Below are positions 1,379 to 24,637 of a stretch of DNA of 38,927 nt, piece after piece. The stretch comes from a virus. The stretch spans positions 1 through 38,927 of IMG/VR virus record IMGVR_UViG_3300006923_000058; one strand, written 5' to 3'. The translations under genes were made by a program, and so were the position numbers. The notes under the pieces are model-generated. The model was given only the letters and a program-made list of their open reading frames with translations. It was not told the origin of the DNA and did no database searches. The number at the start of each line of letters is the position of its first letter. Within the stretch, counting starts at the first letter, position 1.

Positions 1379-1525
1379 ATGAGAGTTAACGACTGGACCT
1401 ACCGATCTGATTGGCAAGAACACTACAACGCCAGCCGGGAATTTGACCTTGGTCTCTTCCCCCTCAAGCGGCTTTATAGTGGAGACGCCCAGAACTGGTT
1501 CTACGCCAGCCGAAACCTTTATTAG
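1379..1525 (+). CDS. Array protein 1 (P-x-K-x-L-Y family), 48 aa
   Basis: First member of the array. It has the N-terminal YRSDW, then FPLKRLY near residues 27-33 and NWFYA after it. The ATG at 1379 was chosen because GGAG sits 3 nt upstream and the family layout starts here. A longer reading from 1157 runs through G-tract DNA and the promoter and is not supported. Function is unknown. Confidence 0.7.
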   Translation: MRVNDWTYRSDWQEHYNASREFDLGLFPLKRLYSGDAQNWFYASRNLY

Positions 1526-1533
1526 GAAACCCC

Positions 1534-1701
1534 TTGAATAAGACCTCCCACCAGTACAAAGAAGTTAAGATGAATCTCTGTATGGCTCGCTGCCGCAGGG
1601 GAATCGTCCCTGTTAAGAAGCTCTATGCTCCTAAGTCAGCAAGAGCCTATGGACAGTGGGTTTACTGCCGAGACTGGGATCATTGGGAGGAAGACGAATG
1701 A
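1534..1701 (+). CDS. Array protein 2, 55 aa, TTG start
   Basis: Carries VPVKKLY and then QWVYC. No ATG gives the full family layout. A TTG at 1534 has AGGAA 4-8 nt upstream, overlapping the stop region of gene 1. An internal ATG at 1570 is the alternative and would remove the N-terminal part. The C-terminal tail after the Trp motif is acidic (WEEDE). It overlaps gene 3 by 4 nt (ATGA). Confidence 0.65.
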   Translation: MNKTSHQYKEVKMNLCMARCRRGIVPVKKLYAPKSARAYGQWVYCRDWDHWEEDE

Positions 1702-1838
1702 CCCCCGACGAATCCTACAGAGAACTTTGGCTGCTGTTCTGCCCCGCAAGAGGCGAGGGAAGCTCAGTCATCCCCGTTAAATTCCTCTACTCCGGAAATT
1801 GGGCCTATTGGACCTGTACAAACCTCACCAGATATTAG
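1698..1838 (+). CDS. Array protein 3, 46 aa
   Basis: Has YRELW near the N-terminus, IPVKFLY in the middle and YWTC after it. It starts in an ATGA overlap with gene 2, which argues against the in-frame start at 1656 inside gene 2. Function is unknown. Confidence 0.7.
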   Translation: MTPDESYRELWLLFCPARGEGSSVIPVKFLYSGNWAYWTCTNLTRY

Positions 1839-1851
1839 GAGAAGCTGCCTA

Positions 1852-2001
1852 ATGGACGAGAAATACTCCCGCCACCATAAAGACACATGTAAACAGCGAT
1901 ATAGCTGGGAAATGGTTATCCCTGTTAAGAAGCTTTATACAAGCTGGAGCCATGACTGGTGCTATGCTGCAAGAGCTATTACCATCGAGAGTACCTCTTA
2001 G
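1852..2001 (+). CDS. Array protein 4, 49 aa
   Basis: Has IPVKKLY followed by DWCYA. The ribosome site is TTAGGAG within the stop codon region of gene 3, about 13 nt before the ATG. The N-terminus is His/Lys/Arg-rich. Gene 5 begins 2 nt after its stop. Confidence 0.7.
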   Translation: MDEKYSRHHKDTCKQRYSWEMVIPVKKLYTSWSHDWCYAARAITIESTS

Positions 2002-2003
2002 AG

Positions 2004-2123
2004 ATGACGAGAGTCCGGGCGAAGTTCCTCTACTCTTCGCGGATCTGTCTCCCGCAGAAGAGGCTTTATGTAGACGTTTCCTATGGTTGGTACGCTTGCA
2101 GTATTTACAAGGAGGTCGAATGA
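2004..2123 (+). CDS. Array protein 5, 39 aa, two motif halves
   Basis: One of the shortest members. It contains VRAKFLY close to the N-terminus and LPQKRLY twelve residues later, followed by GWYAC. The doubled signature looks like a fusion or internal duplication of the conserved segment. No N-terminal Trp motif is present. It overlaps gene 6 by 4 nt. Confidence 0.65.
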   Translation: MTRVRAKFLYSSRICLPQKRLYVDVSYGWYACSIYKEVE

Positions 2124-2299
2124 CGTTCAGAGAACCTTGTTGCCGAGTAGACTGGCAATCACATAAGGACCTTATCGAATGTGAGAGGGCTGAAGATAAG
2201 AGGTACGGCTACTACTTTGCAGTCATCCCTGTCAAGAGGCTATATGTTCAGGCGAACTATCGCTGGGACTACCTAAGAGTCACCGGAGACCTGGAATGA
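2120..2299 (+). CDS. Array protein 6, 59 aa
   Basis: Has CRVDW near residue 10, IPVKRLY around residues 37-43, and RWDYL after it. AAGGAGG lies about 6 nt before the ATG, inside the end of gene 5, a strong ribosome site that fixes this start. The acidic and charged linker is unique to this member. Confidence 0.75.
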   Translation: MTFREPCCRVDWQSHKDLIECERAEDKRYGYYFAVIPVKRLYVQANYRWDYLRVTGDLE

Positions 2300-2475
2300 G
2301 AGATACCGAGTATTATAACGGCCAAGACATAAAGCCTTGCTATCCCGATTACCTGGAGGAGCGGAGAATCTCCCGAGGTTGGCGTAGATTCTCCGCTAAA
2401 GTCTGTCTCCCTATCAAGAGGCTCTACGGCGATGATCCCTACTACTGGTTCGCCTACGCAGTAAGGAGACGCTGA
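2296..2475 (+). CDS. Array protein 7, 59 aa
   Basis: Has LPIKRLY then YWFAY. It starts in an ATGA overlap with gene 6 and ends in a TGATG overlap with gene 8, so it should be translationally coupled to both. The N-terminal half is Tyr- and Arg-rich. Confidence 0.7.
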   Translation: MRDTEYYNGQDIKPCYPDYLEERRISRGWRRFSAKVCLPIKRLYGDDPYYWFAYAVRRR

Positions 2476-2651
2476 TGGTTAAATGGGGAGAGGCAGAATG
2501 TAAGAGAAGCTATAGGGCTCGCGTTGATGCGGTTCGTCAGGGCCTAGACTACGATAAAACACAGCAACAGGTCTTCGGAGTCTATCCTCTCAAACTCTTG
2601 TACAGCAATAAAGGTACAAGTGAGTGGCGATACTACTGCCTTAATAAATAA
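2475..2651 (+). CDS. Array protein 8, 58 aa
   Basis: Has YPLKLLY followed by EWRYY. It starts one base into the stop of gene 7, with AAGGAG upstream in gene 7. A 50-nt gap follows, which contains the second copy of the promoter-like element. Confidence 0.7.
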   Translation: MVKWGEAECKRSYRARVDAVRQGLDYDKTQQQVFGVYPLKLLYSNKGTSEWRYYCLNK

Positions 2652-2666
2652 ATCTTCCGACCCCGG

Positions 2667-2695
2667 TTGACTTGTTATGAGGATGTTGCTAAGGT
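2667..2695 (+). promoter_or_regulatory. Repeated promoter-like element before array gene 9
   Basis: TTGACT (2667-2672) lies 35 nt before the ATG at 2702, the same distance as the element at 1344. The sequence around it (CTTCCGA-n-n-CCGGTTGACTT) matches the first copy except at two bases. The -10 candidate TAAGGT (2690-2695) is weak and doubles as the AAGG ribosome site, so a sequence role other than sigma70 binding is possible. Confidence 0.4.
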
Positions 2696-2701
2696 GCTTA
2701 T

Positions 2702-2884
2702 ATGAATGAACGCATTTACAAAATGGACTGGGAAGGGGTCACAGAGTCTATCCGCGAGGACGTTGACTACGACCGAATAGATGGGAGCCTTTTTATTGGG
2801 GTTCCCGCCAAGCTCCTTTATTCCAAGTCTGTAATGAGATTATCTAAATATGTGCATTGGCGTTATATTTGTGTGGGTCGGTAA
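2702..2884 (+). CDS. Array protein 9, 60 aa
   Basis: Has YKMDW at the N-terminus, VPAKLLY in the middle and HWRYI near the end. An AAGG site precedes the ATG. A 20-nt segment (2831-2850) inside its 3' end is repeated exactly at the start of gene 10 (2882-2901), so its tail contains a copy of the next protein's first residues (MRLSKY). Confidence 0.7.
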   Translation: MNERIYKMDWEGVTESIREDVDYDRIDGSLFIGVPAKLLYSKSVMRLSKYVHWRYICVGR

Positions 2885-3042
2885 TGAGATTATCTAAATA
2901 CCTGTATTCGGATTGGAAAGCCTTTATGCACACCCGCAGTGTAAATAACAGGGCAGCGCTCACGGTGATCCCAACCAAGGAACTCTATACCGCCCACAGT
3001 ATGGGGTCTTGGACTTTCGCTTACTTTCCAAAGGGGAGCTAG
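2884..3042 (+). CDS. Array protein 10, 52 aa
   Basis: Starts in a TAATG overlap. The N-terminal MRLSKY is the duplicated segment also found inside gene 9. It has YSDW, IPTKELY and SWTFAY, so it is a complete member. Confidence 0.7.
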   Translation: MRLSKYLYSDWKAFMHTRSVNNRAALTVIPTKELYTAHSMGSWTFAYFPKGS

Positions 3043-3044
3043 AG

Positions 3045-3185
3045 ATGAAGTGGAGTAGAAGTTTCTACAAAGCGGAGTGGCGATACTTCAACACGTATAA
3101 GGGAGATAGTCTGGTTGTCCCCTACAAAAGTCTTTATGCAAAGGTGGGTATGCCTTGGTCCAAACTGCGGAGGCAGGTGATATGA
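3045..3185 (+). CDS. Array protein 11, 46 aa
   Basis: Has YKAEW, VPYKSLY and PWSKL. GGGGAG lies about 8 nt before the ATG. It overlaps gene 12 by 4 nt. The C-terminus is basic. Confidence 0.7.
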   Translation: MKWSRSFYKAEWRYFNTYKGDSLVVPYKSLYAKVGMPWSKLRRQVI

Positions 3186-3322
3186 TAATTCTCCGCGACT
3201 ACATAGATCTTAAAGCTCGACGAGCGGGGTACGCCCACGTTACCACCAAGATGGCGGTGGTCCCTAACAAGCGTTTATACAGCAGTCGTTTCCGTTACTG
3301 GGCCTACCTTACCTTCGTTTGA
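3182..3322 (+). CDS. Array protein 12, 46 aa
   Basis: Has VPNKRLY then YWAYL. It starts in an ATGA overlap with gene 11, behind GGAGG in gene 11. The N-terminal Trp motif is replaced by an Arg/Asp/Tyr-rich start. Confidence 0.7.
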   Translation: MIILRDYIDLKARRAGYAHVTTKMAVVPNKRLYSSRFRYWAYLTFV

Positions 3323-3327
3323 GAATT

Positions 3328-3492
3328 ATGACAGAACGCCACTGCTATACAGACTGGTGTGTTTGGAAAGAGGACGCCCACCACAATTTCCCAAAGGAGG
3401 ACCCCTCCCGGTATCGCCATGGGTTCGTGCCTGTTAAGCATCTCTATACTCGCAAGAGATTGTATTGGACCCACGTACTTCTCACCGGATAA
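3328..3492 (+). CDS. Array protein 13, 54 aa
   Basis: Has YTDW, VPVKHLY and YWTHV. The linker is His- and Asp-rich. A reading frame from 3359 in another phase overlaps it but has no motif and is rejected. Gene 14 starts after an AATAGGAGAA ribosome site at its stop. Confidence 0.7.
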   Translation: MTERHCYTDWCVWKEDAHHNFPKEDPSRYRHGFVPVKHLYTRKRLYWTHVLLTG

Positions 3493-3503
3493 TAGGAGAA
3501 CCG

Positions 3504-3680
3504 ATGCCGCCGAATCTTGTACCTTTCAAATCCGTCAAGCAACTTTATGTTGATCGATTAGGGCTGATAAAGGCAGCACCCCCTAGTTTATCGAGAAGAG
3601 GTGTCATGCCTGTGAAGCGAGTCTACTGCGAGAAACCTTTTCGACACTTTAACTGGAAGATACTTCGGCTCAAAAAATGA
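3504..3680 (+). CDS. Array protein 14, 58 aa, doubled motif
   Basis: Contains a first motif-like segment VPFKSVKQLY near the N-terminus and a second, MPVKRVY, around residue 37, followed by NWKIL. The ATG at 3504 sits 5 nt after TAGGAGA. Like gene 5 it seems to carry two copies of the docking segment. Confidence 0.65.
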   Translation: MPPNLVPFKSVKQLYVDRLGLIKAAPPSLSRRGVMPVKRVYCEKPFRHFNWKILRLKK

Positions 3681-3844
3681 ACCCAAACAACCTTACCCAA
3701 CAAGTCTACTACCAAAACTGGTTCGGGTATAACTACCAGCGGGACAAGAACTCCAGAGTGTGGAGACGTATGGTCATTCCGGGGAAACGCCTCTATATCA
3801 ACATAGAACACAACTGGTTATGGATCACCTTTAGAAAACCATAG
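3677..3844 (+). CDS. Array protein 15, 55 aa
   Basis: Has YYQNW, IPGKRLY and NWLWI. It starts in an ATGA overlap with gene 14. The N-terminal part is Asn/Gln-rich. Confidence 0.7.
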   Translation: MNPNNLTQQVYYQNWFGYNYQRDKNSRVWRRMVIPGKRLYINIEHNWLWITFRKP

Positions 3845-3855
3845 GGGAGACCCGG

Positions 3856-4038
3856 ATGCGTAACGATAGAGCTTACCGAAAGCGGTGGAGGACTTACCAC
3901 TCCTGCGCACGCGATAAGATAGAAGGGGAAAGGGACGTATACATAGCAATCCCTTACAAGAGACTCTACGCCCAAAGAGGCTCCGTCAGCGGTAGGACGT
4001 GGCGACTAATCCATACCACAAAGGAGATTTTGTTTTAA
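3856..4038 (+). CDS. Array protein 16, 60 aa
   Basis: Has YRKRW, IPYKRLY and TWRLI. GGGGAG lies about 8 nt before the ATG. Highly basic and charged. It overlaps gene 17 by one base (TAATG). Confidence 0.7.
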   Translation: MRNDRAYRKRWRTYHSCARDKIEGERDVYIAIPYKRLYAQRGSVSGRTWRLIHTTKEILF

Positions 4039-4208
4039 TGTCACGCAACCCTTACGCCGATACTGATTTCGGTGATTACCTTTATGAGCGGGAGAGGCTA
4101 CGAACGGAAGGCGAGAGTCAAGTTCTCTTACCGATCAAAAGGCTCTACTCCCATCACCTATTTTGGTGGTTCTCCCACCTCATACCAAAAACGTACATCA
4201 ACGACTAA
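4038..4208 (+). CDS. Array protein 17, 56 aa
   Basis: Has LPIKRLY then FWWFS. The start at 4038 (TAATG) fits array spacing and has GGAG upstream; an in-frame ATG at 3999 inside gene 16 is less likely. The N-terminal half is acidic. Confidence 0.7.
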   Translation: MSRNPYADTDFGDYLYERERLRTEGESQVLLPIKRLYSHHLFWWFSHLIPKTYIND

Positions 4209-4217
4209 GAGGATCAC

Positions 4218-4415
4218 ATGGTTACACCTGACAGACGAAGACGTTACCGATTGCGGATGTTGAAAGAACGTCGCTGCATACGATGCGGGAAGACCCCGCG
4301 ACCTCGAAGAGACGGAACACCTTCTATTTACTGCGAGTACCATCACCAGAAAACCCTGGAAGGTATGCGTAGGTATCACCTTCGACAGCGGGAGAAAAAC
4401 CAATCAACGGATTAG
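4218..4415 (+). CDS. Small zinc-finger-like protein inside the array, 65 aa
   Basis: The one gene in the array that lacks the shared signature. It has C-x-x-C (RCIRCGK, residues 20-23) and a later C-x-x-H-H, a plausible four-ligand zinc site, within a very Arg-rich chain, which suggests nucleic-acid binding. AGAGGA lies 7 nt before the ATG. Its last codons overlap the open frame of array protein 18. It may be an insertion into the array or its regulator; function is not known. Confidence 0.65.
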   Translation: MVTPDRRRRYRLRMLKERRCIRCGKTPRPRRDGTPSIYCEYHHQKTLEGMRRYHLRQREKNQSTD

Positions 4416-4447
4416 ACTACGTTTGCCGCGAGCAGTACAAATCAGCA

Positions 4448-4567
4448 GTGCAGTGGAGCGATGCTAGACATATCCTTATGCCTTTAAAAAGGTTGTACTA
4501 CCATGAGGAATATTTTCACACCCGAGGTCACTGGGGTTCCTTCTTCGTAGGAGGGAAGAATGAATAA
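4448..4567 (+). CDS. Array protein 18, start uncertain
   Basis: Has MPLKRLY and HWGSF, a clear family member. The frame is open from 4373, but the only usual start upstream of the motif is GTG at 4448, which has no clear ribosome site. The family layout (a Tyr/Trp motif, here near AVQW) suggests the true N-terminus lies further upstream, near 4403, behind GGGAG but without ATG, GTG or TTG. A non-standard start or a frameshift from the zinc-finger gene are alternatives. It overlaps gene 19 by 8 nt. Confidence 0.5.
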   Translation: MQWSDARHILMPLKRLYYHEEYFHTRGHWGSFFVGGKNE

Positions 4568-4763
4568 GACTTACAAAGATAAGAGACAAGCCCGCAAATC
4601 GCGAGAGACTTTAACCATATACTACCTCAAGAAGCAGGTTAGGGATCGTGACCAAGAGCCGCGAAGCATAAAACTCATGCTAGTGCCTAGGAAGGCTCTC
4701 AATCAGCGTTCTAATATTGTACGCCTAGATGCCTTTACCTGTTTGGAGATTGTGAAGTGTTAG
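4560..4763 (+). CDS. Array protein 19, 67 aa, degenerate motif
   Basis: The signature is worn: VPRKALN replaces P-x-K-x-L-Y and no W-x-[YF] follows. The N-terminal two thirds are very basic (Lys/Arg). AGGAGGGAAGA precedes the ATG, a strong ribosome site. Position and size place it in the family, but it may have drifted in function. Confidence 0.6.
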   Translation: MNKTYKDKRQARKSRETLTIYYLKKQVRDRDQEPRSIKLMLVPRKALNQRSNIVRLDAFTCLEIVKC

Positions 4764-4927
4764 ATTTCAAAGACGAGGTCATGGTTCGCCGCGACTACGA
4801 ACAGACGCTCGACCTCCTTAGCGTGGATGAAAAACTCTTTCGGGCTGTAGTAGTCCCTTTGAAGCGACTTTACAAAACTAATGAGCGGGAATACCCCTTT
4901 AACCTTGTGAGGGTTTTTAACCTTTGA
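4757..4927 (+). CDS. Array protein 20, 56 aa, GTG start
   Basis: Has VPLKRLY and an ending YPFNL. GTG at 4757 has GGAG 8 nt upstream inside gene 19; ATG at 4781 is the shorter alternative. It ends CTT-TGA with GAGGG upstream, the same codon pair as the bacterial RF2 (prfB) +1 frameshift site, although the spacing is longer here. Shifting would extend it into the next member. Confidence 0.65.
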   Translation: MLDFKDEVMVRRDYEQTLDLLSVDEKLFRAVVVPLKRLYKTNEREYPFNLVRVFNL

Positions 4928-5075
4928 TTACCACCCCCGCTCTTACCGAAAAATCTGGCAAGCAAAATTCATAGCAAAGCAAATAAACTCTGCTACTAGG
5001 TTGGCCTTGATCCCTATAAAACAACTTTACCGTTTTGATGCGTACTCCTGCTCAAGTTGGATTTACCTACGATGA
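4926..5075 (+). CDS. Array protein 21 segment without its own start codon
   Basis: This frame encodes YRKIW, IPIKQLY and SWIYL, a full family layout. It is open from 4911, but no ATG, GTG or TTG lies ahead of the N-terminal motif; the only TTGs sit directly at the P-x-K-x-L-Y motif. A +1 slip at the end of gene 20 would enter it exactly at 4926 (GAT). It ends with an ATGA overlap with gene 22. Coordinates give the shifted continuation only. Confidence 0.5.
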   Translation, partial: DYHPRSYRKIWQAKFIAKQINSATRLALIPIKQLYRFDAYSCSSWIYLR

Positions 5076-5260
5076 AAACGTACAGAGACAATCGCGTGAA
5101 AGGTCACTTCTATCGCAAGAGGTATCTTAATCTCTACCGGCATAAGAAGAAGGTAGGATGCCGGGCTATTATCATCCCTTACAAGAGGATGGGGTACGAC
5201 TATAATGGAAACTGGGCCGTTGCTTGGACTCTTGTTTTGCAAGGGAGTTCCGGGTGGTAA
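5072..5260 (+). CDS. Array protein 22, 62 aa
   Basis: Has IPYKRMGY, a variant with an extra residue, then NWAVAW. It starts in an ATGA overlap; an ATG at 5057 adds five residues. The N-terminus is very basic and Tyr-rich. Confidence 0.65.
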   Translation: MKTYRDNRVKGHFYRKRYLNLYRHKKKVGCRAIIIPYKRMGYDYNGNWAVAWTLVLQGSSGW

Positions 5261-5484
5261 AACGCTTTGGGGGTGGAGGTCACTTTAGAGCAAGGCTTAG
5301 ACCTTGGATTACTGTGGCTATACCTGACATGTGCCGGAACCTGCATACACGTTACCCCGAAGGCAACTCCAATGTAAAGATTCCGGCGAAGATAAACTCG
5401 AACGCGGGAACAGCAATAGAAGAGATCCTCAACTTTAATTGGAACGATATACCGATTGATGTAAAGAACTCACCTGATGAATGA
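5254..5484 (+). CDS. Array protein 23, 76 aa, degenerate
   Basis: GTG at 5254 has AAGGGAG 7 nt upstream and overlaps the stop of gene 22 by 7 nt. The signature is reduced to AIPDMCRNL followed by a longer, acidic C-terminal half that no other member has. Possibly a diverged member or a fusion with another short reading frame. Confidence 0.55.
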   Translation: MVKRFGGGGHFRARLRPWITVAIPDMCRNLHTRYPEGNSNVKIPAKINSNAGTAIEEILNFNWNDIPIDVKNSPDE

Positions 5485-5635
5485 CGATACTTATAAAACA
5501 GATTGGAATAATGCGGTCTTCCTGCGGAGAATGTCACCCGCGAGTTATACTGTTGTTCCGTTAAAAATCCTTTATGTAACCTCCCGCTGGGAAGACCCAA
5601 CGTACCTCTGGGTCTTAACCGGCTCTAGCCGCTGA
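5477..5635 (+). CDS. Array protein 24, 52 aa
   Basis: Last member of the main array. It has YKTDW, VPLKILY and YLWVL. The ATG at 5477 overlaps gene 23 by 8 nt. A second ATG, at 5481 in another phase, gives a short unrelated peptide and is rejected. Confidence 0.7.
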   Translation: MNDDTYKTDWNNAVFLRRMSPASYTVVPLKILYVTSRWEDPTYLWVLTGSSR

Positions 5636-6692: not shown

Positions 6693-6923
6693 ATGACGCG
6701 AAACTATCAGTCTGCAGCAGACGCTGCTCGTATATTAGGAGTGTCCGACCGTACCGTCCGCAGCTATGCGGAGAAGTACGAATGGTTCGGATGTAAACTA
6801 GGTCATTCTGAGACTTGGGTATTTACCAAGGACGAGATCGACCGGATGTTTATTCTTCCCCGACCAGGGCGAGGACGTCCTAAGAAGATCAAGCCGGTCG
6901 AACCTGTCGAATCGGTAGAGTGA
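6693..6923 (+). CDS. Helix-turn-helix protein with AT-hook, 76 aa
   Basis: Residues 5-52 match the MerR/excisionase type of small winged helix domain: an SAADAARILGVS-like first helix, a recognition helix with RTVRSY, then a wing and KDEIDRM. Residues 59-65 are GRGRPKK, an AT-hook, followed by a Pro/Glu/Val tail. It should bind DNA through both parts. It has its own promoter and a terminator directly after, so it is a single-gene unit, as expected of a regulator or architectural protein. Confidence 0.8.
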   Translation: MTRNYQSAADAARILGVSDRTVRSYAEKYEWFGCKLGHSETWVFTKDEIDRMFILPRPGRGRPKKIKPVEPVESVE

Positions 6924-9143: not shown

Positions 9144-9154
9144 ACCATCGGTGT

Positions 9155-9196
9155 GAGGCTGTCCTGCTCTGGTGCGGGTGGGACAGCCTCTGTTTT
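9155..9196 (+). terminator. Rho-independent terminator
   Basis: A perfect 10-bp stem, GAGGCTGTCC/GGACAGCCTC, has a 16-nt loop and a TGTTTT tail. It ends the ligase-like operon and shows that an upstream GTG at 9153 is not the start of the next gene. Confidence 0.8.
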
Positions 9197-9212
9197 AGAT
9201 TTGGAACACAAA

Positions 9213-10316
9213 ATGCAAGACTCTGCCTATAGCCCCTTGAAGGTCTTCCACCAGCAGGAGACTCTTCAAGCTCTGGCATTAGAACAACAACCCAATCCCC
9301 GCCATGTCCAACTGATTATCTCGGACCTGTGCAATCAATCCTGCGGATTTTGTAGTTATCGCATGGATGGCTATGCCTCTAACCAACTGTTCACGCTAGG
9401 TGCAGATCTGGCTAAAAGCGGAACCAACAACCCAAAGCGGATGATGGACTTTGACAAGGTCCAAGAGATCATCGACGACTGCAAGGAGATGGGAGTAGGT
9501 GCGATCCAGTTGACAGGAGGTGGAGAGCCTACGGTGCATCCCCGCTTCCAGGAGACTTGCGAACAGATTATAGATCTTGACATGGACCTTGGTCTCGTCA
9601 CCAATGGGCTCCTCTTAAAGGAAGGGACTCGTGAGCTTCTTATGGATGCCTCTTGGGCGAGAGTGTCTATTGACTCAGGAACCCCAGAGACTTATGCAAA
9701 CGTGCGAAGCGTCCCCGCCATACAGTTCGACAAAGTGTGGGGCAACCTTGAGGCACTCTGCAAACTCCGAGACGAAAAGAAATCGGACCTTATCGTAGGT
9801 GCAGGCTTCGTAGTCACCAAAGACAATTGGAGGGAGATTCCCCTCTTCGCTAAACGCGCGAAGGAGACGGGTGTGGACAACATCCGCTTCTCTGCAATCT
9901 TCCAGAATGGAGGTAGCCGATACTTCAACAGCTTCTTTGACGAGGCTGCTGAGTTGTGCAAAGAAGCTGCGGATCTGGCCGAAGGAAAGTTCACCGTCTT
10001 CAATGGCTTTGGTGATCGCGTAGCAGATCTCGCCCAGAAGGCTCCTGACTACGACTTCTGCGGCTACCAGCATTTCACAACATACATCGGAGGGGACCTT
10101 AACGTCTATCGATGTTGCGGGTATGCTTACAATGAAAGGGGTTTGATTGGCTCCCTTGAAGGGCAGACCTTCAAACAGCTTTGGGCCTCCAAAGAGAAGA
10201 AAGAAGACTTCGACAACTTCTGCGCATCAGAGTGTGGAGTTTGTCAATTCAACCACAAAAACAAGGCTATCCTTTATGCCTTGGACCCTAACCCTCGACA
10301 TGTGGATTTCATATGA
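9213..10316 (+). CDS. Radical SAM enzyme with C-terminal cysteine domain, 367 aa
   Basis: C40-x3-C44-x2-C47 (DLCNQSCGFC) is the radical SAM 4Fe-4S site, followed by a GGGEPT-type SAM motif (LTGGGEPTVHP). The C-terminus has a second Cys set (YRCCGY, then C-x3-C-x2-C in ASECGVCQ), like SPASM or twitch domains that hold an auxiliary cluster. It should cleave SAM to a deoxyadenosyl radical; the substrate is unknown. It opens a run of overlapping glycosyltransferase genes, so a sugar, lipid or nucleotide substrate is plausible. Confidence 0.85.
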   Translation: MQDSAYSPLKVFHQQETLQALALEQQPNPRHVQLIISDLCNQSCGFCSYRMDGYASNQLFTLGADLAKSGTNNPKRMMDFDKVQEIIDDCKEMGVGAIQLTGGGEPTVHPRFQETCEQIIDLDMDLGLVTNGLLLKEGTRELLMDASWARVSIDSGTPETYANVRSVPAIQFDKVWGNLEALCKLRDEKKSDLIVGAGFVVTKDNWREIPLFAKRAKETGVDNIRFSAIFQNGGSRYFNSFFDEAAELCKEAADLAEGKFTVFNGFGDRVADLAQKAPDYDFCGYQHFTTYIGGDLNVYRCCGYAYNERGLIGSLEGQTFKQLWASKEKKEDFDNFCASECGVCQFNHKNKAILYALDPNPRHVDFI

Positions 10317-11113
10317 TTGCTGATGGTTTTATATTTTTTAATGAGTTCGAGCTTTTGGAACTTCGACTTCAAGAGTTAGAAGACACCATAGACGTCCATA
10401 TCCTAGTGGAGTCTGCTCACACCCACACAGGTATACCAAAGCCTTATTACTTCGAGGAGAACAAGGAGAGGTTCGGCAAGTGGCTTAATAAGATTAGGCA
10501 CATTAAACTTGAGCTGCCCCCTAAACTTCTCAACAGCGATCTACCCGCGAGAGATGCTGCCTTCGCCCGTGAGGCTTGGCAGAGAGACCAGATAGCGCAG
10601 GGTTTCTGGGGGTTAAAGCAGAACGATTGGGTAATCCTCTCGGATGTTGATGAGATCCCTCGCCCCGACCTAGTAAAATGGGTAGCAACTAAGATGGACG
10701 GAAAACCTGTCACTCTTATACAGAAACTCCATTACTACTACGTGAATCTCGTTCAGCAACAACCTTGGTATGGCTCAACAATGAGTACACGCGCCTTTAC
10801 ACCCTCCTGCCAAGAGGTAGCAGGTAATCGAGCCCTACACCCAGGCATCCGAGACGGAGGGTGGCATTTCTCTTTTCTAGGAGGGGCCGATTCCATTATG
10901 AAGAAGATACGATCTTACTCAGAAACTCAAACTGATACAGAGAGGACACAAAACAAAGAGTTCATAGAGCAGTGTTTAAACTCAGGAGCGGACATCTTTG
11001 GCCGACCGCAGGAGGAGTTTAAAAAGACCTTCGTAACTTTAGATGCTTCCTATCCCGCAGCCCTTCCTGCGTTTTTAGAAAAATACCCACACTTTGAAAG
11101 GAAAGATTTCTAA
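10313..11113 (+). CDS. Glycosyltransferase, GT17-like, 266 aa
   Basis: The N-terminus IADGFIFFNEFELLELRL and the following LVES-x-x-THTG segment are typical of family GT17 (beta-1,4-N-acetylglucosaminyltransferase-like). A DVDEI metal-binding motif is at residues 111-115. It overlaps the radical SAM gene by 4 nt (ATGA) and the next gene by 1 nt. It should transfer a sugar from a nucleotide donor; the acceptor is unknown. Confidence 0.75.
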   Translation: MIADGFIFFNEFELLELRLQELEDTIDVHILVESAHTHTGIPKPYYFEENKERFGKWLNKIRHIKLELPPKLLNSDLPARDAAFAREAWQRDQIAQGFWGLKQNDWVILSDVDEIPRPDLVKWVATKMDGKPVTLIQKLHYYYVNLVQQQPWYGSTMSTRAFTPSCQEVAGNRALHPGIRDGGWHFSFLGGADSIMKKIRSYSETQTDTERTQNKEFIEQCLNSGADIFGRPQEEFKKTFVTLDASYPAALPAFLEKYPHFERKDF

Positions 11114-11709
11114 TGCGACTTTCTATCCTGATCCCAACTTTGTCCTCCCGTTTTGATTTGTTCCAACCTTTGATACAGAAGTTGGAGAAGCAGATCGCAG
11201 ACGTAGGAACCGATCAAGTAGAGATCCTTGGTTTACTTGACAACAAGAAGAGTAGCGTTGGTAGGAAGAGGAACCAGCTACTAGATTTAGCACAAGGAGA
11301 GTTCTTGCTTTTTATAGATGACGACGACGACGTCTCCGACGATTATATTAGTCAGCTACTCTTTGCCTTAACTGTACCTGATGTAGATCTCGTTCTCTTT
11401 GACGTTCTTCTTCAGTATCAACAAGAGCCTCCTCGAAATCAAGCAAAGGAGGTTCGGTGCCGATATGACCAAGGTCTTAACAACGGTCGTAACATTCGCC
11501 CATCCTTTTATGAGGGACCTCCTGCGCATACGCATGCGTGGCGAGCTTCTAAGATCCAACATCTAAGGTTCCCTGACAAAAACTTCGGAGAAGATTCTGA
11601 CTGGTCTCTTCGGGCAAAGACCTTTGTAGAGAAGGTAGTCCGTATTGATAAGACTCTTTATTTTTACAAATTTGACAAGGCACGAACGGAGACACGAGAT
11701 GGTAGATAA
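11113..11709 (+). CDS. Glycosyltransferase, GT2-like, 198 aa
   Basis: A GT-A fold start (LSILIPTLSSR), a GRKRNQLLDLAQGE stretch and IDDDDD at 68-73 (the DxD metal site) mark a GT2-type enzyme. It is shorter than most GT2 proteins and ends soon after a GEDSDW motif. It overlaps the methyltransferase gene by 11 nt. Confidence 0.75.
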   Translation: MRLSILIPTLSSRFDLFQPLIQKLEKQIADVGTDQVEILGLLDNKKSSVGRKRNQLLDLAQGEFLLFIDDDDDVSDDYISQLLFALTVPDVDLVLFDVLLQYQQEPPRNQAKEVRCRYDQGLNNGRNIRPSFYEGPPAHTHAWRASKIQHLRFPDKNFGEDSDWSLRAKTFVEKVVRIDKTLYFYKFDKARTETRDGR

Positions 11710-12217
11710 GTTTGAGTCACCCCCACACTCTAAGCTTGTAGCTTCCTTGGCAGAGTCCCTGCAACCCTCTCTTTATTTAGAGCTTGGCATACAGGAAGGT
11801 TACACCTTCAATTTGGTGAGTAGACATGCGAACCGCTCAGTTGGGGTCGATCAGACCAAAAGGCTGTATGGAGGTGAGGTTTACGTGGAGAGTACCGATT
11901 CTTTCTTTGCGGCTGAGAGGTTACAAAAGTCTTCCGTTGATTTAGTTTTTATTGACGCAGACCACAGCTATGCTGCTGTGGCTTCTGACTTTGCGAATGC
12001 CCTGAAGCTCTTAGTTCCTGGGGGTTGTATTCTCTTGCACGACACTGATCCTAGGGAGAAAGGTCTAATGGTTAACCACCGTTGTGGGGACGCTTATAGA
12101 TTTGCCCACCAACTGGAGAGTAATCCAAACTTTAATGTAGTCACCCTTCCCGTTGCCGAGGCGGGACTTTCCCTAGTTACCCGAGTCGAAGACTCAAGAG
12201 TTCACCGACTATTATAA
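11699..12217 (+). CDS. SAM-dependent methyltransferase (class I), 172 aa
   Basis: The YLELGIQEG segment is the SAM-binding glycine loop, and FIDADHSY followed by LLVPGGCILLHD is characteristic of small O-methyltransferase-like enzymes (Methyltransf_24 type). The ATG at 11699 was chosen because the alternative at 11645 lies deep in the previous gene. Within a glycosyltransferase cluster it may methylate a sugar or a modified base. Confidence 0.75.
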   Translation: MVDKFESPPHSKLVASLAESLQPSLYLELGIQEGYTFNLVSRHANRSVGVDQTKRLYGGEVYVESTDSFFAAERLQKSSVDLVFIDADHSYAAVASDFANALKLLVPGGCILLHDTDPREKGLMVNHRCGDAYRFAHQLESNPNFNVVTLPVAEAGLSLVTRVEDSRVHRLL

Positions 12218-12229
12218 GGAATCCTACCC

Positions 12230-12964
12230 ATGGACGTTGAATGCTCAATTGTCATAGCTACCCGAGAGAAGGAGGTGGAGCTTCGACGGACTCTGACCAC
12301 CATCTTCCGACAGAAGCCCCCCTTTAATTTTGAGGTGATTGTTGTAGATGATGGCTCCCCCGGCGATACCGGTTTTGTCTGCGAGAACTTCCGAAGCTAC
12401 GGAAATCTGATCCGATACCACCGGTTGGAAAAGGAGAAGTATGGTAACCCTGCACACGCGCGTAACGTAGGCTACAAGATGGCAAGAGGGAAGGTAATTA
12501 TTGCCCAATCCGATGATGTCATCCATGGCGAAAAGACTACCATAGAACGACTTGCACTTGCTGACAACACAGAGAAGTTCACTATAGCCCTCGTTCATAA
12601 TGCTGTGGTGAACCAGGAATGTCAAGTAACTCGAAAGCTGCCGTTGTTTACAGGACCTGACAACCCTCGCCCCCTCTTCTTCTTAGGCTCTCTTCTACGA
12701 GAGCATGTCTATGAGATTGGCGGGAACTCCGAAGACTTCACTGAGCCTGGGTATGAGGATGATTGGTTTGCACAATGCCTGATTCACGGCAGAGGTTTGA
12801 CGCCCATCTTCCGAACTGACATAACAGGTTATCACCAACGGCATACAAGAGCTTGCGTTCAAGTCTCTTACGCAAAGATGAAAGAGTTATTTGAGTGTAA
12901 GTATAAGGCGGCGTCCGAAGGAAAAGCTCCCTGGCAAGGAGGACCCCCTTGGGATCTGGAGTAA
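12230..12964 (+). CDS. Glycosyltransferase family 2, 244 aa
   Basis: A typical GT2 layout: CSIVIATREKEVELRRTL, EVIVVDDGSPGD and AHARNVGYKMARG, with a QSDDV metal site, then a long acceptor region with GYEDDWF. ATAAGGAA precedes the ATG. It ends 15 nt inside the next gene. Confidence 0.8.
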   Translation: MDVECSIVIATREKEVELRRTLTTIFRQKPPFNFEVIVVDDGSPGDTGFVCENFRSYGNLIRYHRLEKEKYGNPAHARNVGYKMARGKVIIAQSDDVIHGEKTTIERLALADNTEKFTIALVHNAVVNQECQVTRKLPLFTGPDNPRPLFFLGSLLREHVYEIGGNSEDFTEPGYEDDWFAQCLIHGRGLTPIFRTDITGYHQRHTRACVQVSYAKMKELFECKYKAASEGKAPWQGGPPWDLE

Positions 12965-13647
12965 GTATAGCTGTAGCTTACCACCGACCGGAAATCCGGG
13001 ATCAAGCTTTAGCCTCTCTAGGGAAATACGACATCCCTCCTGTCTTCTCTGTAGATGGAGGCTCCCTGACGTCTTGCTCCCAGCTTTGGAATACTTGCAT
13101 TGATCGATGTGAAACGGATACACTTATCATCTGCAACGAGAAGGCTCGCCCTACAAAATATCACATAGAGAAGGTCCAACAACTTCTCGACGAAGGTTTT
13201 GGTTTGGTCGGGCTTTATCGTTTTGGTTTCTTTGGCTTCCGAAAGGATACTATAAGAAAGATAGGCTTTTTTGACGAACGGTATGTGGGAGGTCACTACG
13301 AGGACAATGACACGATCCTTCGGTTAAAGGAGGCTGATATAGCTTACTACGAAACCGAGGAGACTCCTTACATACAAATGTCAAGTGCATGGCACCATGA
13401 ACAGGCTAAGTCACATTGGAAGTCTAAGTGGCGACTTACGAAAGGTCTCTACCAACGACTTCAAGAGGAGGAAAGCTACTCCTACAAACTAGGGGAACCT
13501 GCTCCCCAAACTCTCTTGCCATGGTCGAGAAGTAAACTCCTGACTATGTCGGGAGGTCACCTAAATAGACAACTTATAGAACACCCACCTACTAATAGGA
13601 GAAACTATGGCTGCAATTTCATTCGCGATAATTCGAGTTCTGGGTAA
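12949..13647 (+). CDS. Glycosyltransferase-like protein, TTG start, 232 aa
   Basis: A TTG at 12949 is backed by AGGAGG 5 nt upstream, and no ATG fits. The N-terminal SIAVAYHRPEIRDQAL and FFDERYVGGHYEDND resemble the nucleotide and acceptor regions of GT2 enzymes, but the central DxD is not obvious (ICNEKA at that position). It overlaps the next gene by 41 nt, and its Asn/Ser-rich tail lies in that overlap. Confidence 0.65.
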   Translation: MGSGVSIAVAYHRPEIRDQALASLGKYDIPPVFSVDGGSLTSCSQLWNTCIDRCETDTLIICNEKARPTKYHIEKVQQLLDEGFGLVGLYRFGFFGFRKDTIRKIGFFDERYVGGHYEDNDTILRLKEADIAYYETEETPYIQMSSAWHHEQAKSHWKSKWRLTKGLYQRLQEEESYSYKLGEPAPQTLLPWSRSKLLTMSGGHLNRQLIEHPPTNRRNYGCNFIRDNSSSG

Positions 13648-14455
13648 TGACATCCCTACTCGACATGACCCCAACCAAACCTACACAAATTTAGACTACA
13701 TCCTCTCCCGCGAGGAGAACTTCGCAGACACCACCAAGATCTTCTGTCTTAACAGGATTGTTGATCCCGACATGTTGACGAAGTTAAAGGATCGCCTCGA
13801 TCAGGCCGGAGTCCAATACTGGGAGATCCCTTTCGATAAAGAACACTACGCCACACTCCGAACCGATGACAAGCGGAAGCATTACCTCACTAACGTCAAT
13901 CCAGCGAGGAACATGTGCCTGGACATGCCAGCTATCCGAGCAGACTACCGAGTCCTACTCGACGGGTCCGTCTTCCTAACTCAGGACGGCTGGTTTCAGA
14001 TAGAGGACATGGTCTACCAACACCGCAATCAAGAGGTGATGGGTTGTGCTGTCTGCCGGGTAGACTCCATCGAAGAGTTAGAATCGCCCAAGTTCGTACC
14101 CAACATCAAAGAAGCTTACGGATGGGGAAACAGCCAAGTAGTCTCCTCTCGGGAACCCTACCTCATTTTCAAGGACGGGTGCGAGGACCGATTTGATGAA
14201 TCCCTCACCTACGGCAAGGCAGACAAGGCAGAGCTGCTCTACCGGTTAGGGGTTCCAGGCTTCTGGGACAGATGGGAACCTCTTCTGCGATCTGAGGCTC
14301 TAAGAAAGCCTTCTCCCAACTTTGGAACGGTAACCCTCGGGGGTTATGCCGTGAGATTACCCTCCTATACCCACGGGGGCGGGGGCGGGAATAACCGCCA
14401 GAGAGGTGCCGACAGGAAGAAAGGCTTGCAGCTATTTGTTGAAAGTCTAAGATAA
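13607..14455 (+). CDS. Putative glycosyltransferase, 282 aa
   Basis: Begins with IIRVLGNDIPTRH, and KIFCLNRIVD, ARNMCLDM and RVLLDGSVFLT follow, a layout seen in uncharacterised glycosyltransferase-like proteins. A His-Gly5 stretch lies near the C-terminus. The ribosome site is AATAGGAGA with the CCT-n-AATAGG motif. Last gene of the block, followed by a terminator. Confidence 0.55.
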   Translation: MAAISFAIIRVLGNDIPTRHDPNQTYTNLDYILSREENFADTTKIFCLNRIVDPDMLTKLKDRLDQAGVQYWEIPFDKEHYATLRTDDKRKHYLTNVNPARNMCLDMPAIRADYRVLLDGSVFLTQDGWFQIEDMVYQHRNQEVMGCAVCRVDSIEELESPKFVPNIKEAYGWGNSQVVSSREPYLIFKDGCEDRFDESLTYGKADKAELLYRLGVPGFWDRWEPLLRSEALRKPSPNFGTVTLGGYAVRLPSYTHGGGGGNNRQRGADRKKGLQLFVESLR

Positions 14456-15660: not shown

Positions 15661-16157
15661 TGACACGAGTAGAAAACTACCTGGGTGACGTTCTGGACGA
15701 ATCCCTTGCCGCTGAAGATGCTAACCCCGAGGTCTACACACCCTCGGAACTGGAACTCGTCTGCGCTAAAATTGCATACGTTGCGCAGGGAGGGGATGCA
15801 GAGGACCTCGATAAATTCGAGGACTTTGAAAGCTTTGGCATCGACCCTCTTACGATCATCGCGATCTTAAATATCATCCTTCGACTCTATGAGTGCATGA
15901 AGGAACGACGGGAGCGTAGAGAGGCTCGCCGTGAGCGAAGACGAGGTTGGTTCCGTTTGCAAGAGTATGCTAACGAGATTAAACCTCTTCGCCGCATCAA
16001 AATCGACGCCCGAATTGAACGGGTTATTCGTCAACACATCGACGGGACTCCCGAAGAGGTCACACGGTTACGTGAAACCATCACTACGATGGGAACTAGC
16101 TTGACCGAGGAGCAATTCGAGGAACTCGCCCACGAACTCGCCCTGGAGAATGTCTGA
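15660..16157 (+). CDS. Hypothetical protein with Arg/Glu-rich helix, 165 aa
   Basis: Starts in a TGATG overlap behind AAGGAG. A hydrophobic helix (PLTIIAILNIILRLY) is followed by a highly charged Arg/Glu stretch and then a globular C-terminus. It also overlaps the peptidase gene by one base. It could be an internal virion or membrane-associated protein. No family is recognised. Confidence 0.65.
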   Translation: MTRVENYLGDVLDESLAAEDANPEVYTPSELELVCAKIAYVAQGGDAEDLDKFEDFESFGIDPLTIIAILNIILRLYECMKERRERREARRERRRGWFRLQEYANEIKPLRRIKIDARIERVIRQHIDGTPEEVTRLRETITTMGTSLTEEQFEELAHELALENV

Positions 16158-18574
16158 TGCAGAAACCCTTTGTCAACTCTTCGTTTGAAGAAGCACTCGC
16201 CACTGTAAGAGGCGGGAGGACGACAGCCGCAAGCCTGAACACAGGCTGCTCCCCCTCAGAGCTTCACGAGATCTACTCCAAAGGTTTTCGCGGTGTGCGA
16301 CCTGACAAGGTCACCCCCGACGAACGCAAAGCCTTTGGCGATATGATGGCAGCTCAACCGGGACTCTACGAGGTGTTCCCGTGGGCGAAGGGTATTGGCA
16401 AAGGTAAAGCCTGTGCTGCCTACCTCCCGCAACTCCACTTCGACGAAAACTTTGGTGGTGATGAAGCGCAGACCGTTGGGAGCTGCTTTTTAGCTGGAAC
16501 CCAAGTCCGTATGGGAGACGGCTCCCTTCGACCTATTGAGCAGGTTGGATTAGGGGATCAGGTGGTTACACATCTGGGTAATGTTAAAACCGTTACTAAC
16601 TTAATCGAGAAGCCCCACAACGGTCACATTGTAGAACTTGCGATAGAAGGCTGCACCCGGAAGTTAAAGGCTACCCCCGAGCATAAGTTTATCCAGTACC
16701 CTAATCTCTGGGACACTTCCATAAAGAACCATGATTCTCGCCACAAAAGGAGATCAGAGGTTACCGAGTGGAAGCGAGTGGATTCTTTAGTAACTGGGGA
16801 TTATGTCCTACTTCCTAATCAAACCGGGGAGGTAAAGGAGCATACTTTCTTCTTAGACGAGTTCCCCGAGTGCTACTCCTCTAAAAATCTCCCAGATCGT
16901 ATAGAAGCCCCCTCTCCTGGAAAGGTCCGCTGCAAGAACGGGCGATACGAGGTGAATCGGGAGATTCCCTTAGATACACGTTTAGCGTGGGTATTAGGCT
17001 TATATGCTGCGGAGGGTGGGGTGCAGCGAGGGGGGCCTAAAAACCACCCACGAAGAACCACCTTCACCCTTTGCTCTGCCCAGAAAGATGCAGGAGTTAT
17101 CCTCCAGTTGAAGTCCTTCCTCAAGGATCTTTTTGGGGACGACTTGAAGATAGAGGTTAGGAAACCAAAGGAAAGTGTGATTAGCATCAGGGTTAATAGT
17201 ATACCTCTTGGCTACTTGCTCTCTTCTTTAGTGACCGGGAATGTCTATTCTAAGAGGACTCCTTGGCAGTTAATGACTTCTTCTCCCTCAGTACGGGCAG
17301 CCTTTGTTAAAGGTTGGTTGGACGGAGATGGGCATCTAAATACCAAGAGACGCCCGGAAGCGAATTCTAACTATTGCTCTGTTACTGGAGTTTCTGTTAG
17401 CAGAGGTCTTCTGGAAGATGTCTTTGATATTCTTGTTTCCCTTGGTTATAGCCCTAAGCTTACTAACCGAAAGGCTAGAAAACAGTCTAAGAAGGCGGGG
17501 CAGGTCAATCTGTATGGTTCCGACGTCATGGGGTTGTACCCAGATGCCTTAGCTCCCACAAGAGTTAAACGGAAACACCTGAAGACCCGACTGGGTTTAG
17601 CCGCCAAGGTTAAATCTGTGACAGCCGAGCCGTTCACCGGGACTGTTTACTGTCTAGAGGTGGAGGATGACCACTCTTTCATAGCCGAAGGATTCGCCGT
17701 CCATAACTGTGTCTCCCACTCAACAGCCAATGCTGCAGCCATGGACTATTGTGCTGACGCCCTCTGGGGTGAAACCATGTACAAGGGTCGTATCGTCAAA
17801 GAGGCGATGTATAAGGCTCGTGGCTACAATTCCCATGGCTGGTACTGCGGCACTGCTGCTTCCTACATTGGTCCCGAGGGGGACGGTGGACTTCTCTATC
17901 GAAAGGAATATGGAGAAGGACGGGATTCCATCGACCTCTCTGAATTCTCCCGCGATACGGAGCGATGGGCCTCGTCAGGTAGCCGGGGTTGCCCTGCGTG
18001 GCTTGAGAAGCTCGCAGCGAAGAATAAAGCCCAATGGATCATTCCCATCAATGGTGATCTCGATGTCTATCGGGATGCCATTGCTCTGGGATTCGGAGTC
18101 TCGATCTGCTCAGGTTATGGCTATTCCAACTCGACGGATTCTAACGGGGTAGCACGTCAACAAGGTTCGTGGGGACACGCAATGGCCCATACGGCGTTCA
18201 ATGACACCAAATGGGCACACGACACCTATGGAGGCATGCTAGGCGGCGTACAGCAGTCCTGGGGACGCTGGAACCGGATTAACGGTACACCCGAGGGCTC
18301 TCCGAAGATGGCAACGGGTATGTTCTACGCCCGAGGACGAGATGTTGGTAAAATGATCAAAGGCTCTGACGACTTCGCAATCTGCGGAGTGCAAGGTTGG
18401 GACCGGATCGCTTGGCAGGATCTTGTCGCGGGAGGCTCTATCCAAGATCGCAAGGCTGCGATGGTAGACCACTTTAAAGACTCGACGATCTCTGACTACT
18501 ACAAAGAACGACAAGAGAAAGGCTTTGCGTTGGTGGACAGTCACCTCGATGGTGGCTCTCTTCTGGCTATTTAA
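16157..18574 (+). CDS. Papain-like cysteine peptidase precursor with intein, 805 aa
   Basis: Residues 110-517 are an intein (own entry). Joining residues 1-109 to 518-805 gives a 397-aa protein in which the junction reads QTVGS-CVSHSTANAAA. This matches the papain-type Q-x3-G-S-C active site, with C518 as nucleophile. H674 (SWGHAMAH) fits the catalytic His, and QQSWGRW (699-705) fits the papain NSWG region, with Gln in place of Asn. The role is unknown: lysis, virion processing or host-protein cleavage. Without splicing the nucleophile is blocked. Confidence 0.8.
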   Translation: MQKPFVNSSFEEALATVRGGRTTAASLNTGCSPSELHEIYSKGFRGVRPDKVTPDERKAFGDMMAAQPGLYEVFPWAKGIGKGKACAAYLPQLHFDENFGGDEAQTVGSCFLAGTQVRMGDGSLRPIEQVGLGDQVVTHLGNVKTVTNLIEKPHNGHIVELAIEGCTRKLKATPEHKFIQYPNLWDTSIKNHDSRHKRRSEVTEWKRVDSLVTGDYVLLPNQTGEVKEHTFFLDEFPECYSSKNLPDRIEAPSPGKVRCKNGRYEVNREIPLDTRLAWVLGLYAAEGGVQRGGPKNHPRRTTFTLCSAQKDAGVILQLKSFLKDLFGDDLKIEVRKPKESVISIRVNSIPLGYLLSSLVTGNVYSKRTPWQLMTSSPSVRAAFVKGWLDGDGHLNTKRRPEANSNYCSVTGVSVSRGLLEDVFDILVSLGYSPKLTNRKARKQSKKAGQVNLYGSDVMGLYPDALAPTRVKRKHLKTRLGLAAKVKSVTAEPFTGTVYCLEVEDDHSFIAEGFAVHNCVSHSTANAAAMDYCADALWGETMYKGRIVKEAMYKARGYNSHGWYCGTAASYIGPEGDGGLLYRKEYGEGRDSIDLSEFSRDTERWASSGSRGCPAWLEKLAAKNKAQWIIPINGDLDVYRDAIALGFGVSICSGYGYSNSTDSNGVARQQGSWGHAMAHTAFNDTKWAHDTYGGMLGGVQQSWGRWNRINGTPEGSPKMATGMFYARGRDVGKMIKGSDDFAICGVQGWDRIAWQDLVAGGSIQDRKAAMVDHFKDSTISDYYKERQEKGFALVDSHLDGGSLLAI
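16484..17707 (+). mobile_element. LAGLIDADG intein at the peptidase active-site Cys
   Basis: Intein boundaries: Cys1 (residue 110; CFLAGTQVRMGDG, block A), TPEH (173-176, block B), a C-terminal block ending VEDDHSF...AVHN, and +1 Cys. Two LAGLIDADG helices, VLGLYAAEGG (279-288) and FVKGWLDGDG (383-392), keep their acidic residues, so the homing endonuclease is probably active. Length is 408 aa, normal for a full intein. The Cys/His-Asn/Cys splice residues are all intact. Confidence 0.92.
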
Positions 18575-19503: not shown

Positions 19504-20185
19504 CATGAGTCAAGCAAACGCCTGACCCAAACAAACACTTTAACCAAAGGAGACCACCATAAGTGAGGACGCGAGCGGCAGGCTGATGAGGTCTTTACTC
19601 CTCTGAAAGCAACAAGTCAAGGCGGGCAACCCTGTCTAAAGGAGTCTTGACGGAGCCGACATTCAAAAGGGTACTTAGTGCGAAGCGCGATCAACTTGGA
19701 GATTCACTTGTTGACGGTCAGGTCGTACTGAGTAATAACCGAATCGGTGGTCCTGGGACGGACAACTACTTCCTGAGTCGTAACGATAGAGTAAAGTGGC
19801 TTTATACGTGAGGGAGTGGGAAACTTTGCATCGGCTAGGCATTGGCGAGCCTAAGTGGCTGTAATCTACCCGCCTTCGGGCTGTGGGGGTTCGATTCCCT
19901 CTCGATGCACTGCGGCCTGCCCTTGGCTCCATGCCGGGGACAGTTAAGAGGTGAATCAACACCATCCGCTCCAATACAACATGGGTCTGTAAGTCTCCAG
20001 CTATATGGGAGGCTGATATATGGTATCCAACCTAATCGTTGTCGGAGGGTCATCCACCCTCCTTAGTTAGCTGCAAGGGTTAAGGGTAGTGACGACTACC
20101 TCCCTTTGGTGCGGGAGCATCGCGGCAAAGCGTCAACAGGTGATTAGGCCAATGCGAGTTCGAGTCTCGCTAGACCTGCCCTACA
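19504..20185 (+). ncRNA. Large structured RNA (about 680 nt) with embedded tRNA-Tyr
   Basis: There is no real gene between 19341 and 20223. The stretch is full of perfect helices: GTCAAG/CTTGAC near 19616-19650, AGTCTCC/GGAGGCT (19992-20014), GGAGGGT/ACCCTCC (20044-20062), GGTAGT/ACTACC (20085-20100), and a T-arm-like hairpin (20154-20170) with GGGTCTG (19983-19989) able to pair with TAGACCT just after it. A tRNA lies inside. Size, phage origin and an internal tRNA are hallmarks of GOLLD-type RNAs, and ROOL is similar. Class assignment is inference; the end point is approximate. Confidence 0.6.
19828..19909 (+). tRNA. tRNA-Tyr (anticodon GTA)
   Basis: Acceptor GCATCGG/TCGATGC, D-arm AGGC/GCCT, anticodon loop CTGTAAT with GTA, a long variable arm GCC-TTCG-GGC as expected of bacterial tRNA-Tyr, T-arm GGGGG-TTCGATT-CCCTC, discriminator A. 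CCA is not encoded. The anticodon stem has one A-C mismatch at its outer pair. It reads TAC and TAT codons. It sits inside the structured RNA region. Confidence 0.88.
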
Positions 20186-24448: not shown

Positions 24449-24472
24449 TGAGTTATTACGAAGGTTGGGAAC

Positions 24473-24637
24473 ATGCACACAGTGGACGACTATAGTTACT
24501 ACGTTAATTGGAAGTGGCATTGGAAGTCCCGCTGTAAAATGGGGTATCGCTCGCTCTGCCTTCCTCGAAAAGCGTTGTACAGTTCAACGAAGTGGCAAGG
24601 CAATAAGTGGCGATTACGACCTATAATTCTCTCCTAA
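24473..24637 (+). CDS. Dispersed array protein d1, 54 aa
   Basis: Has YYVNW, LPRKALY and KWRLR, the same layout as the array at 1379-5635, 19 kb away. AAGG/GGGA precedes the ATG. Its stop codon lies inside the stem of the terminator that follows, so termination could respond to its translation. Confidence 0.65.
   Translation: MHTVDDYSYYVNWKWHWKSRCKMGYRSLCLPRKALYSSTKWQGNKWRLRPIILS

Follow-up and report, generated by a model that had tools for sequence, protein, structure and literature searches.

The window analysed in this study is the entire 38,927-base virus record IMGVR_UViG_3300006923_000058 from IMG/VR (positions 1 to 38,927), and its terminase, portal and capsid-type genes identify it as a tailed phage. 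Near its left end, the segment from 1379 to 5635 is occupied by 25 open reading frames (ORFs) of 39–76 aa, all on the plus strand, and 96% of its 4.26 kb is coding. Twenty-three of these ORFs, including a doubtful one at 4560–4763 with a leave-one-out profile score of 3.9 bits, belong to a family marked by the motif hhP-x-K-x-L-Y (h, hydrophobic residue). The pattern P.K.[LV]Y was found 21 times on the plus strand of the array, whereas 300 dinucleotide-preserving shuffles gave 0.09 matches on average and never more than 1; worn forms of the motif were present in two further ORFs (VPRKALN in that at 4560–4763 and IPYKRMG in that at 5072–5260). The motif changes reading frame together with the ORFs, across all three frames, and synonymous codons are mixed at its positions: in the array the proline is encoded by CCT 12, CCC 4, CCG 4 and CCA 1 times, the lysine by AAG 13 and AAA 8 times, the tyrosine by TAT 11 and TAC 10 times, and the leucine by five different codons. 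These results indicated that the peptide, and not the DNA, has been kept.

The ORFs are tightly packed, with overlaps of 1–8 nt, often as ATGA, at 13 of the 24 junctions and 22 junctions within 17 nt. For 23 of 28 ORFs, codon preference ranked the proposed frame first among the three forward frames, and Shine-Dalgarno sites lie 5–8 nt upstream of many family ORFs. Aromatic positions were enriched on both sides of the motif; W-x-[YFWH] occurred in 14/28 ORFs (6.1 in shuffled sequences) and an N-terminal Y-x-x-[DEN]-[WY] in 7/28 (1.5 in shuffled sequences). A sequence-only reading of this DNA had reported about 25 tiny genes in 4.3 kb, nearly all overlapping, 24 of them carrying P-x-K-x-L-Y followed by W-x-[YF] and often an N-terminal Y-x-x-[DEN]-W. 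The number and density of the genes were borne out, and the motif count lies far above the random-frame expectation that this reading had named as a check; the 24 carriers become 23 family ORFs with one in doubt, the overlap was overstated, and the two aromatic patterns, although enriched, are confined to half of the ORFs and to a minority, respectively.

The array is headed by a promoter-like element, TCTTCCGATGCCGGTTGACTT (1330–1378, on the plus strand like every feature listed here), which reads TTGACT-N17-TATGCT-N6-ATG at gene 1. It is followed by gene 1 (1379–1525, LFPLKRLY, a profile match), gene 2 (1570–1701, IVPVKKLY, which would include the N-terminal helix part only from an upstream start), gene 3 (1698–1838, VIPVKFLY), gene 4 (1852–2001, VIPVKKLY), the short gene 5 (2004–2123, CLPQKRLY, with a second motif-like stretch, RAKFLYSS), gene 6 (2120–2299, VIPVKRLY, the top profile score in the window), gene 7 (2296–2475, CLPIKRLY) and gene 8 (2475–2651, VYPLKLLY, the closest paralog of gene 9). 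A second promoter-like element, TCTTCCGACCCCGGTTGACTT (2653–2701), then gives TTGACT-N17-TAAGGT-N6-ATG at gene 9 (2702–2884, GVPAKLLY), whose loop repeats the beginning of gene 10 over 32 nt (88%; 2827/2877), an internal duplication. Both elements contain the 21-bp sequence TCTTCCGAYSCCGGTTGACTT, which is present exactly twice in the window (positions 1330 and 2653) and never in shuffled sequences, and which in both cases yields TTGACT-N17-TAnnnT-N6-ATG at the next family gene. The two elements would be promoters with very short leaders or none, and the genes would form two putative operons, genes 1–8 and gene 9 onward; a generic promoter scan gave nothing above chance.

Downstream of gene 9 lie gene 10 (2884–3042, VIPTKELY), gene 11 (3045–3185, VVPYKSLY), gene 12 (3182–3322, VVPNKRLY), gene 13 (3328–3492, FVPVKHLY) and gene 14 (3504–3680, VMPVKRVY), in which a second, N-terminal motif-like stretch (VPFKSVKQLY) suggests a fusion. 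Gene 15 (3677–3844, VIPGKRLY), gene 16 (3856–4038, AIPYKRLY) and gene 17 (4038–4208, LLPIKRLY) precede an unrelated 65-aa protein with two Cys/His pairs (4218–4415; a weak match to phrog_1588 of unknown function, expectation value (E) 0.003). The remainder comprises gene 18 (4412–4567, LMPLKRLY), the doubtful or worn gene 19 (4560–4763), gene 20 (4781–4927, VVPLKRLY), gene 21 (4929–5075, LIPIKQLY), gene 22 with its worn motif (5072–5260, IIPYKRMG), a 76-aa ORF outside the family (5254–5484) that has no PHROG match and whose VKIPAKINS is merely motif-like, and gene 23 (5477–5635, VVPLKILY). Genes 18 and 21 have no ATG, GTG or TTG start that would take in the conserved N-terminal part: the frame of gene 18 is open from 4373 without such a codon before 4448, and gene 21 has none after the in-frame stop at 4908. 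An ATC at 4403 lies 8 nt after GGGAG upstream of gene 18, and gene 20 ends at 4922 in CTT TGA, where a +1 shift would lead into the frame of gene 21. Because the contig belongs to a public virus collection that consists largely of metagenome assemblies, single-base assembly errors could explain the two start-less ORFs equally well.

The kinship of the members was assessed by several sequence comparisons. A profile built from the array recovered members on which it had not been trained, both in L017, a contig from a related phage (gene A at E 2.5e-7 and gene B at E 2.9e-5), and, more weakly, in a second cluster of the window at 24.4–25.4 kb. In leave-one-out scoring, 24 of 30 proteins had scores that were reached by at most 4 of 100 controls in which the motif was kept and the flanks were shuffled, and all-against-all BLASTP of the array family gave 32 of 253 pairs at E<=1e-3 against none for shuffled pairs. 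When the motif was masked, the profile scores of many members dropped to about zero, so most of the family signal sits in the motif; mean column identity across the 30 proteins is about 22%, with the proline and lysine invariant. Partial duplications and truncations are visible among the members. Adjacent genes were overall no more alike than random pairs (p 0.22), which rules against recent tandem duplication as the origin of most members. Collectively, these comparisons demonstrated, at the level of sequence, that the approximately 23 tiny array genes are paralogs from one ancestral gene. The sequence-only reading was thus right that these ORFs form a genuine protein family, in which one site is strongly conserved and the rest has diversified, and wrong to regard it as many independent small proteins, given the flank similarity, the BLASTP pairs and the partial duplications and truncations; its statement that everything else differs holds for a remainder that has diversified, but not strictly, since the flanks retain weak similarity.

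The second cluster allowed turnover and selection to be examined. A single phage covers the array, whereas two contigs, about 90–97% identical in DNA, cover the second cluster; because no relative covers the array, selection could be measured in the second cluster only. L017 carries six genes there, A to F, while the window has C, E, F and a 14-codon family-gene remnant, genes A, B and D of L017 being absent or truncated. The remnant (24449–24493, plus strand, GTG start, encoding MSYYEGWEHAHSGRL and then a stop) is cut short at TGGGAA in the L017 junction alignment. Gene C (24473–24637) and gene E (24946–25113, GTG start) were found by the profile, and gene F (25106–25357, 83 aa, ending in VVIPRKFLYAK) is a weak member at E 0.003; all three are on the plus strand. 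The breakpoints of gain and loss are short shared sequences, TGGGAA and GAGT, the former encoding the W-E of the conserved N terminus. For the members common to both phages, the ratio of nonsynonymous to synonymous change (dN/dS) against L017 was 0.17 for C, 0.11 for E and 0.22 for F, with 7 to 33 changes per gene. These values show purifying selection on the second-cluster members, the outcome of a selection check that the sequence-only reading had named. In both clusters a 20-nt element, CTCACCRGATAWTAGGAGAA, also recurs around the stops of family genes (1824, 3481, 24629 and 25358); the sequence at 24629 makes a perfect hairpin, CTCTCC-TAATAATA-GGAGAG. An HNH endonuclease gene (25617–26309; phrog_374, E 3e-69) adjoins the second cluster of the window and is missing from the related contigs, including L017.

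Two alternatives bear directly on these data. The array could be a DNA-level cassette store or a set of recombination repeats, in which case the shared peptide would simply follow from the repetition of DNA; the microhomology at the breakpoints and the repeated element around some stop codons would speak for such a view. The scrambled motif codons, the motif frame that changes in step with the ORFs and the purifying selection in the second cluster all argue against this, and we regard it as scarcely credible. Alternatively, the genes could form an antitoxin-like or immunity-like array, each member neutralising one toxin variant of host toxin–antitoxin or abortive-infection systems or of competing phages, with the common site reading a shared toxin fold. 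One conserved site, a variable remainder and whole members gained or lost are what is expected of orphan immunity arrays, and all three are seen here; no toxin gene was recognised nearby and no database match was obtained, and sequence does not separate this possibility from interference with the host. We consider it unlikely.

The family proteins are 39–67 aa long (mean about 53 aa) and soluble by composition, with an aromatic content of about 17%. Their net charge averages +4, 24 of 30 being positive and six neutral or acidic, whereas the larger proteins of the phage are mostly acidic. To model the fold, AlphaFold2 was run with the family alignment on two members, genes 15 and 23, giving moderate confidence (predicted local distance difference test scores of 75 and 77, and predicted template modelling scores of 0.37 and 0.51, respectively). 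Both models show an N-terminal helix and two strands (in gene 15, helix 3–25 and strands 29–36 and 46–53), in which the first strand ends in hhP and K-x-L-Y starts the connecting loop or turn. Neither a viral library, searched with the first model, nor the PDB, searched with both, yielded a significant fold match, with Foldseek E values of at least 0.66; GnsA, the best fold match at Z 4.3, was not significant and was not trusted. On these models, the motif might serve contact, folding or both. A common docking partner is possible, but a constant motif would also be expected if its part were only to hold the hairpin together. The invariance of the proline and lysine over 30 proteins at 22% column identity favours a functional role, at least for the lysine.

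The basic, aromatic-rich composition raises the possibility that the family consists of small nucleic-acid-binding proteins, which would contact RNA or DNA (host mRNA, tRNA, the ribosome or phage DNA) through the invariant lysine and exposed aromatics. Their divergence would then tune the target sequence, and their role would be regulation of expression instead of inhibition of host proteins. A precedent is SPO1 Gp49, a takeover-module protein that is a small RNA binder of novel fold (PMC10531801), and a weak, non-significant likeness to a double-stranded-RNA-binding domain was seen (Z 3.1). The six neutral or acidic members, the lack of any kept basic pattern beyond one lysine and the non-significant fold matches count on the other side, and we hold this explanation to be possible but doubtful.

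Searches of reference collections identified no described family with this signature, in agreement with the sequence-only reading: it was absent from Pfam, PHROGs, PADLOC and the PDB sequences, the last searched with the family profile. No member had a significant match in Pfam or PHROGs, where isolated weak matches concerned one member each; PADLOC, which holds mainly defence models, gave a single isolated match to one member (E 0.0047), and NCBIfam gave none for the three members scanned. Rfam likewise returned no match. Degenerate motif-pair and motif-triplet scans for a second array in viral contigs and in bacterial and archaeal genomes returned nothing or chance matches, and a further scan for other arrays (A2) confirmed none. 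When gene F and L017 genes A and B served as queries, no contigs beyond the two already known came up; against a phage collection, neither three of the proteins (tblastn) nor the complete array (blastn) had a significant match, and no relatives were found for the ligase near the array. No match to the family profile turned up in 398 genomes of one phylum, a result of little weight, while the positive control of the profile search on virus records worked. A shallow open-access literature search for a described phage array of such kind yielded nothing relevant.

Taken together, the small size, dense packing, apparent promoters of their own, lack of recognisable domains and rapid turnover of members resemble host-takeover and anti-defence genes (PMC6873191; PMC13096335), and by this likeness we propose, with a probability of about 0.5, that the array encodes a paralogous host-interference family (takeover or anti-defence), a diversified panel of host-directed binders. 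In this proposal, one gene was repeatedly duplicated, recombined and diverged into a multigene family of small soluble proteins, which now stands as a densely packed array under two promoter-like heads, accompanied by a small second cluster. The probable fold of each member is a helix plus a hairpin of two strands; hhP-x-K-x-L-Y and the later tryptophan would be its unchanging part, serving as scaffold and contact site, and the variation would fall in the helix and the loop. The members would probably be made together, early in infection, and the panel may bind host machinery or host defence proteins, inhibiting or redirecting them, in the manner of a phage host-takeover or anti-defence island but derived from a single family. 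Several points weigh against the host-interference proposal: the model confidence is moderate and the two models differ around K-x-L-Y; no member matches a family of known function, or a defence or anti-defence family, in Pfam, PHROGs or PADLOC; and selection was measured solely on the second cluster, in two phages and from few changes. A more specific form, which we put forward tentatively and consider improbable, is a mini-binder panel against host variation, in which the constant hairpin site would dock a shared host component, the remainder would recruit or block different clients, and recombination would refresh the panel.

Tiny phage genes of unknown function are usually taken as unrelated orphans, whereas here one gene has diversified about 23 times in 4 kb, so that one structure or one binding partner could account for the entire region. 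The natural paralog set is a ready mutational series and, if the proteins are inhibitors, would be a compact natural library of host-targeting mini-proteins; the family profile also offers an annotation handle on genes often missed for their small size.

The surroundings of the array were also surveyed. The terminase is about 24–29% identical to those of Listeria and other Firmicutes phages, and the capsid and portal are about 24–29% identical to those of large Streptomyces phages and some archaeal viruses. Upstream of the array, positions 1–1378 are low-complexity and apparently non-coding, rich in AGCAGAGC-type repeats, and possibly near a genome end. A 76-aa excisionase-like helix-turn-helix protein is encoded at 6693–6923 (phrog_1840, E 1.3e-6). 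An 805-aa protein at 16157–18574 has, by Pfam, an intein and a LAGLIDADG-like domain that interrupt a protein of unidentified family, and a single tRNA-Tyr gene lies at 19828–19910; phage tRNA-Tyr has been reported as a counter to tRNA-Tyr-cutting defences (PMC13096335). The interval 9153–14455 holds a radical SAM gene and then several glycosyltransferase-type genes, possibly a glycan-modifying cassette. The SPASM/twitch-like radical SAM gene (9153–10316), 3.5 kb downstream of the array, would permit the family members to be precursor peptides whose conserved Lys, Tyr or Trp is modified by this enzyme or by the nearby glycosyltransferases. However, the alignment has no conserved leader, the motif lies in the middle of the protein, flanked by predicted strands, and the enzyme sits among glycosyltransferases with no peptide maturase model above cut-off, which makes this explanation very improbable.

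Diverged paralogs that lie in tandem and are gained and lost are familiar from the multigene families of African swine fever virus and the gene accordions of poxviruses, and the array shares this organisation with them, although both the viruses and the proteins are different. Among phages, the host takeover module of Bacillus phage SPO1 (genes 37–60, NC_011421), reported as small, densely packed genes with their own promoters (PMC6873191), is similar: it has approximately 24–26 mostly small, packed genes in a terminal region, most of them without known homologs. The array, with 25 ORFs in 4.26 kb and two promoter-like repeats (predicted promoters only), fits such a dense small-gene cluster, and its members are smaller and denser than the SPO1 genes. 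The SPO1 module differs in not being one family, since only 3 of 378 BLASTP pairs reached E<=1e-3 compared with 32 of 253 in the array, and a motif search alone found no P.K.[LV][YF] in its proteins. A dense block of small interference genes is therefore of a known kind, while one built from a single diversified family appears to be new. Phage anti-defence islands and amplified anti-defence genes, for example the T6 loci where the homing endonuclease SegB has been reported to amplify anti-defence genes (PMC13096335), are like the array in that gene number shifts through short-homology recombination and a homing-type endonuclease lies nearby. In T6, amplification produces identical copies that raise dosage, whereas the copies in the array have diverged to about 22% column identity, and an anti-defence role for them would be by analogy.

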